The notes beneath the pieces are model-generated. The model was not told the DNA's origin. It worked only from the letters and a program-made list of their open reading frames with translations, and ran no database searches. From positions 1-56,205 of the forward strand of contig JAHQYM010000005.1 of the NCBI GenBank assembly GCA_024421095.1: a stretch of 56,205 nucleotides of DNA, written 5' to 3'. The stretch is from Acidimicrobiia bacterium (GTDB lineage: Bacteria; Actinomycetota; Acidimicrobiia; Acidimicrobiales; Aldehydirespiratoraceae). Both the position numbers and the translations under genes were made by a program. This document shows positions 7,641 through 48,173 of the stretch, one piece after another (position 1 is the first letter of the stretch; every line of letters begins with the position of its first letter).

Positions 7641-8192
7641 ATGGCACGGATTGAGATCATTCCAGAAGACGCATGGGTCGGTACGCTTGCTGACCTTCAC
7701 CCGCGAGTCGCAGACCCCGTTACCGGGCAGGTCGACAATATCATGGCAGTTCATTCGCTGAACCCCCAAGGTATGGCAGCACATTTAGCCGTCTACGAGT
7801 CTGCGATGCGCGGCACCGCCACACTGCGCAAAGTGGAGCGTGAACTGATTGCGTTTGTGGTGAGCCTTACCAACGAATGCCATTATTGAGTGGTGCATCA
7901 TCGGCGTGGTCTGCGCCGCCTCATCAAGAATGACGAACTAGTGGCCGCCGTCGAAAACGACTGGCAAACCGCTCCGATATCCCCCAAACGCACCGCAATG
8001 CTGAATTTCGCAGTCAAACTCACGAATACTCCAGCAAAAATCACCGATGCCGACATATTCATGCTTAGGGAATCAGGGTTCAGCGACAGAGACATTCTCG
8101 ACATAGTCGAAGTGGTCAGCTACTACGCATATGCCAACCGCATCGCCGACGGATTAGGGATCAAGCTAGAAAACCCGAATGTCACACCCTAA
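7641..8192 (+). CDS. AhpD-like (carboxymuconolactone decarboxylase family) selenoprotein with in-frame UGA
   Basis: Read through TGA at 7887-7889, the gene encodes 183 residues, the usual length of peroxidase-related AhpD-like proteins. Codons 78-87 read NECHY-U-VVHH followed by RRGL, where relatives have CxxC-x3-H, so UGA (residue 83) stands for the second redox cysteine. The protein continues without a break through LNFAVKLTNTPAKITDADI and IVEVVSYYAYANRIADGLG to TAA. It should be a cytoplasmic thiol/selenol peroxidase or reductase. A hairpin after the UGA resembles a SECIS element (separate entry). The start ATG at 7641 has only a weak upstream GGGG. Without recoding, an 82-residue stub would be made. 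A point mutation is the alternative, but two other genes here show the same change. Confidence 0.8.
7887..7923 (+). promoter_or_regulatory. Candidate bacterial SECIS element in the AhpD-like gene
   Basis: Counting the U of UGA as 1, the hairpin CGGCG-UGGUCUG-CGCCG spans 16-32, with apical GGUCU at 22-26. In E. coli fdhF the loop also carries GGUCU at exactly 22-26. The base can pair further (UGAG 7887-7890 with CUCA 7920-7923), placing UGA in the foot of the stem as in known elements. Confidence 0.75.
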
Positions 8193-45928: not shown

Positions 45929-47332
45929 TTATCCATGCAGCGAACGACCGGTTAGCGACAACACAGTCTCACCAAAGATTTCACTCATGGTGGGATGCGG
46001 TTGAATAAAAGCGGCAACATCATCCACCGTTGCTTCCCAATTGACGGCCAAGTATGCCTGTCCTAGTTGCTCAGTCACCCAAGGCCCAACCATATGCACA
46101 CCCAAAATTTGCCCCCCCGTGCCATCAGGGTTTTTCTCAGCAATGACTTTCACTAGGCCGTCGGTATCGCCCACGATTTTCGCTCGACCGCTACCGATAA
46201 AACGGTTAGCAGCTGTAACCACCTGATAGCCTGCTGCTCGCGCAGATTCTTCGGTGTGGCCAGCGAAAGCGACCTCAGGGTGGCAATAGATGCACCACGG
46301 CGTTCGTTGGTGGTCTAGTGGCAAAGGTTCTTCACTCAACGAATCGGTGACCGCCAACATTCCCTCAGCAAATGCAACATGAGCAAGTTGCGGTGTGTTG
46401 ATCAGGTCGCCAATGGCCCATACGTTGGGCTCGGCCGTACGACAACGGTCATCCACCTCAACGAAACCCCGTTCGTCAACACCAACCGCTGTGCCAACCA
46501 AGCCCAAATGTTCAGAATTGGGGCGACGCCCAACCGACACCACAACCAAGTCTACGTCTAGGGAGTTGCCATCGCCGAAAGTAACGGTGGTGTTTTGCCC
46601 TGCGGGGTCGGGGGTGTGGCCTTGAACTGAAGCCGAGGTGTAGACAGTAATCCCACGTTTCTTGAAACTGCGTGCCAAGACCTTGACGGCATCTCGGTCG
46701 CAGCCGTTGAGGATTTGCGGTAGCGCTTCAATGACCGAGACTTTCACGCCCAAGTCTGACATCATTGAGGCGAACTCGACACCGATCGCGCCACCGCCTA
46801 TCACTGCCGCACGCTGCGGTAGAGCTTGGATGGACAACAATTCGTCTGATGTCATGACTAGGCGGCCGTCAACTTCAAAACCTGGAATCGTGCGCGGCAA
46901 CGATCCCGTAGCCAAAATTACTGACGAAGCGGTGAGGGTTTGTTGGTCGGTGGCGCGATGTACTGTTACCACACGGTTGGCCCCCAAACTGCCGACTCCG
47001 TTATAGACGGTTACTTTGCGACCCTTTAGTAAATGTTCGAGCCCAGCAACGAGTTGATCAATGACGGTCTGCTTGCGCCGCATGGTGACACCCCAGTTGA
47101 GTTGCGGGGCTTCGGTCTCAACACCGAATTCGCTAGCGCGCGATACCGTGCGAAAAACGTGCGCCGTCTCCAACAACTCTTTCGCGGGAATGCAGCCAAC
47201 GTGCAAACAAGATCCGCCGACTTTGGCTTTTTCTACTAGGCCCACATTGAGCCCGATACCTGCTCCGTAGAGTGCGGCGGCGTAACCGCCAGGACCGCCA
47301 CCTATGACGATTAGATCGTGTTGTGTATTGAT
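45929..47332 (-). CDS. lpd: Dihydrolipoamide dehydrogenase (E3), apparent ATC start
   Basis: 467 residues if begun at ATC 47332. The N-terminus then reads (M)NTQHDLIVIGGGPGGYAAAL, the proper FAD-binding start. The redox pair is GGSCLHVGCIPAKELL, the NAD site AAVIGGGAIGVEFASMMSDL, and the catalytic His-Glu is HPTMSE near the end. GGGAGG sits seven bases before the ATC and an in-frame TGA lies six codons upstream, so no standard start is possible without losing the FAD motif. It re-oxidises the lipoyl groups of E2. Confidence 0.92.
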   Translation of the reverse strand: MNTQHDLIVIGGGPGGYAAALYGAGIGLNVGLVEKAKVGGSCLHVGCIPAKELLETAHVFRTVSRASEFGVETEAPQLNWGVTMRRKQTVIDQLVAGLEHLLKGRKVTVYNGVGSLGANRVVTVHRATDQQTLTASSVILATGSLPRTIPGFEVDGRLVMTSDELLSIQALPQRAAVIGGGAIGVEFASMMSDLGVKVSVIEALPQILNGCDRDAVKVLARSFKKRGITVYTSASVQGHTPDPAGQNTTVTFGDGNSLDVDLVVVSVGRRPNSEHLGLVGTAVGVDERGFVEVDDRCRTAEPNVWAIGDLINTPQLAHVAFAEGMLAVTDSLSEEPLPLDHQRTPWCIYCHPEVAFAGHTEESARAAGYQVVTAANRFIGSGRAKIVGDTDGLVKVIAEKNPDGTGGQILGVHMVGPWVTEQLGQAYLAVNWEATVDDVAAFIQPHPTMSEIFGETVLSLTGRSLHG

Positions 47333-47379
47333 AGGGTTTCCTCCCGCTCAAAACTAAGGCTACTCGGCTGCATTGGGGC

Positions 47380-47478
47380 TTAGGCGGCCATTAGCAACTG
47401 AATAGTGCCAGCTACCAAGATCGCTAATCCAACAAACAACGCCACCCCGATCAACATCCGTGTGCTCATAGCGGCCAT
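47380..47478 (-). CDS. Small single-helix membrane protein, 32 residues
   Basis: Starts at ATG 47478 (or 47469) and encodes MSTRMLIGVALFVGLAILVA followed by GTIQLLMAA. It is one hydrophobic helix with a basic start, so it should insert in the membrane. No clear ribosome site. It lies between lpd and the divergent thioredoxin-like gene. Unknown role; could be a chance frame. Confidence 0.4.
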   Translation of the reverse strand: MAAMSTRMLIGVALFVGLAILVAGTIQLLMAA

Positions 47479-47576: not shown

Positions 47577-48173
47577 ATGACCACAAGCAGTTTGCGCTCC
47601 GGCATAGGTATTGGTTTGCTGTCACTGGCGCTACTTGGTGCTTGCGGCAGTGGCACTCCTACCGAAACCACTCCTACCACCTCCGCCTTGAGCACCCCAA
47701 CTACGCTTTCAAGCACAACCGCACCCACTACTTCAACCAACGCAGAAGACGGAACTCAAGTAGATGTCGCTTGGCCACATACCTGGACGGAATCACTTAT
47801 CGGTGGGGGCCAATTTGATGCGGGCGACTACGCCGGTCAAGACTTGGTCTTATGGTTTTGGGCACCGTGGTGACCAACGTGTCAACGAGAAGCCGCTGCG
47901 GTCGCAGCGCTACAGCAACAGTTCGGGAACCAAGTCAGCATTATTGGAGTGGGTGGCGCAAGCTCATCAATTAGCGACCTCGAACGGTTCGTTAGTAATC
48001 ACGGTGCCGAGGCGATACCTAATCTCTCTGACCTTGACAATTCTGTGTGGGAATTCTATGATGTCACAAGCCAACAAACTTTCGCGCTAATCAACGATGA
48101 CGGCGCAACGGAAATAGCTAAAGTGTCGGTTCCTGAACTGGCTACCCGTATTGAAACGCTTGTGGCCACATAA
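47577..48173 (+). CDS. TlpA/ResA-like thioredoxin-fold lipoprotein, selenoprotein with in-frame UGA
   Basis: 198 residues read through TGA at 47871-47873. Signal peptide ends in LSLALLGAC (lipid anchor), then a Thr-rich linker. The thioredoxin motif is VLWFWAPW-U-PTCQREAAAV, so UGA (residue 99) replaces the first, nucleophilic Cys of CPTC. The frame continues with QFGNQVSIIGVGGASSSISD, AIPNLSDLDNSVWEFY and QQTFALINDDG to TAA. It should act outside the membrane in disulfide or peroxide chemistry. A hairpin with a GGUC loop follows the UGA. Without recoding the product ends before the catalytic site. Confidence 0.82.
47871..47909 (+). promoter_or_regulatory. Candidate bacterial SECIS element in the thioredoxin-like gene
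   Basis: CGCUGC (47894-47899) pairs perfectly with GCAGCG (47904-47909) around loop GGUC. The loop begins 30 bases from the U of UGA, inside the accepted spacing, and has G in the first two loop positions. Confidence 0.7.

Follow-up and report, generated by a model that had tools for sequence, protein, structure and literature searches.

Does the in-frame UGA of a thioredoxin-like gene in the window (the whole stretch of 56,205 nucleotides that was analysed) code for selenocysteine (Sec), and what would an exported selenoprotein of this kind do? The first-pass annotation had placed the UGA within WFWAPW-UGA-PTC and had read the locus as a thioredoxin-like lipoprotein with Sec in place of the nucleophilic Cys. 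Exactly one internal stop was found in the frame, a TGA in this context at codon 99 of 198, and the protein assignment is backed by comparative evidence. The gene and its UGA are as follows.

47577..48173, + strand: Sec-DsbF-like selenolipoprotein gene, 198 aa including U99, start ATG, stop TAA.
47871..47873, + strand: UGA predicted to be read as selenocysteine (Sec99 of UPTC, with resolving Cys102); TGA in all Sec orthologues and Cys in ten homologues.

The domain continues across the TGA. In detail, the Pfam families Redoxin (residues 76-187, E 6.1e-12) and AhpC-TSA (residues 77-175, E 8.4e-12) both span it, and PF00578 is matched with 45.6 bits (cut-off 26) around the UxxC motif UPTC. In 51 genomes of the same family, the orthologues mostly carry one internal TGA, with identities from 60% (same genus) to about 40%, and the TGA is always located at the U of WFWAPWU. 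When one genome per species was scanned for the pattern, at least 119 stretches matched; the scan and the same-family loci together provided at least 145 distinct Sec sequences with the full domain beyond the UGA. The scan matches listed are mostly named Acidimicrobiales, Acidimicrobiia or Ilumatobacteraceae, and a minority belongs to Egibacteraceae, Euzebyaceae, Nitriliruptorales and Pseudonocardia. The domain sequences of two loci (L127 and L068), around and after the Sec, are identical to those of same-family L039 and L043, and a few short scan matches (such as L052, L073, L133 and L139) were set aside as chance. The expectation that a surface selenoprotein would be uncommon did not hold, as Sec forms are widespread in Acidimicrobiia and are uncommon only in the literature.

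Bacterial Sec insertion calls for a hairpin (SECIS) downstream of the UGA, and the candidate is the following.

47894..47909, + strand: bacterial SECIS hairpin with a 6 bp stem (CGCUGC/GCAGCG) and a GGUC loop, indicated by covariation, loop conservation and absence from the Cys homologues.

The hairpin starts 20 nt past the UGA and its loop is at +26, that is, +29 counted from the U of UGA; the six-pair stem with a GGUC loop at normal distance, already proposed in the first-pass annotation, was confirmed. Folding of the 59-nt single sequence was no better than chance (z +0.47, with 137 of 200 shuffles equally good), and Rfam gave no support for the hairpin. In the comparison among homologues, 62 of 64 W-type genes had a GGTC loop at +29, counted from the U of UGA. 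The loop-forming codons GCG-GTC-GCA of these genes are fixed at their third bases in 62/62, 63/64 and 57/64 cases, and third-base conservation at four-fold sites elsewhere in the W-type genes is mostly 0.4-0.7. In 32 distinct hairpins, which include types with different amino acids in the loop region (AVA vs SVE) and were hand-picked for distinctness, a choice that favours covariation, 90.1% of the cells are paired against 60.2% after shuffling. The covariation score is 0.717, against 0.177 for shuffled sequences and at most 0.157 for slid controls drawn from the same set, and five of the six stem pairs are altered on both sides. A GGUC hairpin with at least four closing pairs is present in 58/64 genes of the W-type and in 37/44 of the remaining non-H Sec genes, but in 0/10 Cys homologues (p 1e-8 against the W-type). 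The GGUC loop and the covariation thus describe a downstream hairpin with a G in its apical loop. The same hairpin at +29 is found in 0/37 H-type Sec homologues, and H-type genes would need a different SECIS structure.

The Pfam matches crossing the TGA, the retention of the TGA in orthologues and the covariation of the hairpin are the grounds, all of them from sequence comparison, on which the frame 47577-48173 is judged to be a real selenoprotein gene, with Sec probably incorporated at codon 99. An annotation halting at the UGA would truncate the gene at codon 98.

The source genome contains a second Sec paralogue (L182, G000:C213:2773-3246) of the WFWAPHUPTC type, which as an H-type gene has no +29 hairpin. 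In other loci (L046, L047, L048 and L049), WFWAPHU selenoproteins are arranged in tandem pairs about 1.2 kb apart, and one of these proteins has a long Ala/Glu-rich repeat at its N-terminus.

The source genome is a metagenome-assembled genome (MAG) of 2.72 Mb in 231 contigs, 98% complete. Its selA (387 bits) and selB (300.7 bits when in-frame neighbours are included) are adjacent on contig C49, selD (363 bits) is on contig C230, and tRNA-Sec (67 bits, anticodon TCA by ARAGORN) is on contig C101. Both SelB and tRNA-Sec, on which the first-pass annotation had made the selenoprotein reading depend, are therefore present. The selD gene (L018, G000:C230:14912-15835) has an in-frame TGA of its own, because of which SelD is probably itself a selenoprotein.

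Of 395 genomes in the class, 17 contain the WFWAPWU pattern and 9 contain WFWAPWC, and none contains both. The Cys forms are mostly lipoproteins too, and the hairpin is missing from them. The selA gene was found in each of the 18 Sec-form genomes tested and in 5 of 10 Cys-form genomes (p 0.0026). In a tree of 158 proteins (140 columns, many deep forks unresolved), the source protein groups with others from its own family in a supported clade that has 22 members, all of them Sec forms. Sec and Cys proteins are interleaved in this tree, where the Cys label requires at least six changes. The UGA is thus positioned at a conserved redox site which is occupied by Cys in homologues.

Upstream of the catalytic domain, two further features were recognised.

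47577..47645, + strand: signal peptide with lipobox LLGAC and putatively lipidated Cys23; a lipobox is common in homologues.
47646..47765, + strand: Thr/Ser/Pro linker of low complexity that joins the anchor to the thioredoxin domain, model pLDDT about 65.

A lipobox behind a hydrophobic stretch occurs in 57/61 W-type Sec, 68/71 other Sec and 8/10 Cys homologues, which is consistent with lipidation at Cys23. In the profile search against solved proteins, Mycobacterium tuberculosis DsbF (8.6e-46) and MPT53/DsbE (7e-38) were nearest, followed by ResA. Similarly, the AlphaFold model (mean pLDDT 89) superimposed best on DsbF (3ios, Z 23.0, rmsd 1.2 A), then on DsbE (Z 20.8) and ResA (Z 19), and peroxiredoxin Q structures reached Z of about 16. 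The earlier assignment to the TlpA/ResA type is corrected in that the nearest solved relatives are the actinobacterial DsbF and DsbE, with ResA following. Judged from these nearest solved proteins, the gene product is almost certainly an extracytoplasmic thiol-disulfide oxidoreductase of the actinobacterial DsbF type in a Sec form, and it combines the DsbF fold with the WFWAPWxxxC motif.

The residues WFWAP, Sec99, Cys102 and Val109 are conserved in the homologues, and Glu105 nearly always. The cis-Pro opposite the active site is missing from the source protein, where it is replaced by Gln167, and from its sister L021 (G047). This position is Pro in 53 of 57 aligned homologues, and the other active-site residues are kept in the Gln forms; the Gln may weaken or alter catalysis.

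In UxxC and CxxC enzymes of the thioredoxin fold, the first residue attacks a disulfide and the second, a Cys, resolves the intermediate. Sec usually favours reductive chemistry, and peroxide chemistry also suits it. On this background, SelB would deliver Sec-tRNA to the UGA, aided by the hairpin 20 nt downstream, and lipidation of Cys23 would hold the thioredoxin-fold domain at the outer membrane surface of the cell. There Sec99, replacing the attacking Cys of WFWAPWCPTC, would attack an exported substrate at a disulfide or an oxidised thiol, and the mixed selenide-sulfide would be resolved by Cys102. The electrons would most likely come from the membrane protein CcdA, giving mainly reductase action.

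The proposed partner is indicated by gene order in relatives. The ccdA gene is directly downstream of four Cys forms (in G132, G248, G346 and G382), with motif-to-ccdA gaps of 311-372 nt, of which about 300 nt is still gene, and two Sec forms (L063 and L097) have it as a neighbour. The source genome has one ccdA, which is located beside a separate Cys TlpA and not beside the Sec-DsbF gene. No match to VKOR or DsbB was detected in this 98% complete MAG, in which absence is no proof, and no match to CcdA was found in three Sec-form genomes. Based on the ccdA adjoining six relatives, the single ccdA of the genome itself and the lack of a detected VKOR or DsbB, the preferred reading is a reductase that receives its electrons from CcdA, at somewhat better than even odds; its substrates would be exported proteins. 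For identity and direction taken jointly, an exported, lipid-anchored Sec-DsbF with a CcdA-fed reductase role is given a probability of about 0.72.

The same selenoprotein could instead be a disulfide-forming oxidase for exported proteins. Its nearest solved relatives, DsbF and DsbE/MPT53 of M. tuberculosis, with which it has the active site WFWAPWxPTC in common, are oxidants in vitro: they carried out oxidative folding of hirudin and did not reduce insulin, which argues against reductase action (PMC3853704). The membrane partner proposed for DsbE and DsbF is DsbD-like (PMC3853704). An oxidase would have to be re-oxidised, but the source genome gave no match to VKOR or DsbB, and the relatives adjoin ccdA. 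As the reductive preference of Sec also speaks against it, the oxidase function is considered rather unlikely.

A surface peroxidase or sulfenic-acid reductase acting mainly against oxidative damage would agree with the AhpC-TSA/Redoxin family match, with the presence of peroxiredoxin Q among the fold matches (Z about 16) and with the suitability of Sec for peroxide chemistry. However, UxxC together with WFWAP is of the DsbF/ResA type, and those structures fit far better (Z 23 and 19), so that this function appears quite improbable.

A sequencing or assembly error, or a pseudogene terminating at codon 99, could be suspected from the 231 contigs of the MAG and from a hairpin that is not significant in isolation, but it is hardly credible and was dismissed, since an identical TGA is found across many independent genomes with the protein conserved beyond it, the hairpin covaries, and Sec forms pair exactly with the Sec machinery. 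Equally negligible is a selenium-free decoding of the UGA as Trp or another amino acid. Nothing was found in its favour, and it is contradicted in that ten homologues have Cys at this position, the position is catalytic in the fold, SECIS and Sec machinery are present, and Trp there would mean loss of the nucleophile.

The neighbours of the Sec-DsbF gene are conserved in the same family.

47380..47469, - strand: ORF of a 29-aa membrane peptide (MSTRMLIGVALFVGLAILVAGTIQLLMAA), divergent, conserved neighbour in 15 of the 15 same-family regions examined.
45929..47335, - strand: lpd (dihydrolipoyl dehydrogenase, E3), conserved neighbour by synteny in same-family genomes.

In these 15 regions the gene is divergent from the 29-aa ORF and lpd; the E2 and LipB-LipA genes follow farther out, and several of them have epimerase and E1 genes on the opposite side. 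As lpd, E2, LipB-LipA and E1 are cytoplasmic enzymes, their synteny was taken as location only and they were set aside as functional partners. In four other loci (L118, L141, L153 and L192), the corresponding position is taken by a longer protein with a membrane anchor, which begins with a segment similar to the 29-aa peptide. Within lpd, the region 47317-47349 (- strand) has no ATG, GTG, TTG or CTG from the in-frame stop to the FAD motif, which suggests AUC as start codon (from GGGAGGAAACCCT-ATC); the same start pattern is found in a locus of another genus (L206).

The window contains a second selenoprotein gene at 7641-8192 (+ strand, TGA 7887-7889), which encodes an AhpD-like peroxidase-related enzyme with the motif CHYU. 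Its product scored 145 bits against TIGR01926 (cut-off 81.8), and a GGUC-containing hairpin is located 3' of its UGA.

With respect to known systems, M. tuberculosis DsbF (Rv1677, PDB 3ios) and DsbE/MPT53 (Rv2878c, PDB 1lu4) share with the source protein the fold (Z 23.0 and 20.8), the WFWxPWC region and export, but they have Cys for Sec, no SECIS and about 31% identity to the model, and are oxidants in vitro (PMC3853704). Bacillus subtilis ResA is similar in fold (Z 19), in being exported and membrane-bound, and in the conserved Glu after CxxC; on the contrary, its site is the Cys form CEPC, and its role in cytochrome c maturation is not indicated for Sec-DsbF.

UxxC selenoproteins as a kind are already known from a 2026 prokaryotic catalogue, where PF00578, cd02966 and PF08534 are each represented by UxxC members (PMC13188914). 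Its Prx-like thiol:disulfide oxidoreductase (PF00578) and thiol-disulfide isomerase-like protein (cd02966) resemble Sec-DsbF in the UxxC Sec and the superfamily; the catalogue names neither lipoprotein nor Actinobacteria, and it may already contain the Sec-DsbF branch under a generic name (PMC13188914). Among the NCBIfam selenoprotein models, none recognises the Sec-DsbF lipoprotein branch. The UGC-containing TlpA disulfide reductase/ResA-like WAxxUGC family (NF041054) is also a TlpA/ResA-like selenoprotein, but its motif is UGC and not UxxC, and the source protein scored 13.2 bits against a cut-off of 300. The Rcas_1661 family thioredoxin-like (seleno)lipoprotein (NF041057) is likewise a Sec-containing thioredoxin-like lipoprotein, but it was matched only in the N-terminal signal and linker (13.5 bits, cut-off 190). 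A description of the Sec-DsbF lipoprotein family was not found in the open-access literature.

Tentatively, and at somewhat less than even odds, the Sec-DsbF lipoproteins could constitute an undescribed, Acidimicrobiia-centred family which forms a selenium-dependent reductive pathway outside the membrane and in which Sec and Cys were exchanged repeatedly, the cis-Pro being lost in one small clade. The DsbF type gains a large Sec branch, and the natural pairs of Sec forms with SECIS and Cys forms lacking it are test material for the retention of selenium in an exported redox enzyme. The Acidimicrobiia appear as regular extracytoplasmic users of selenium.
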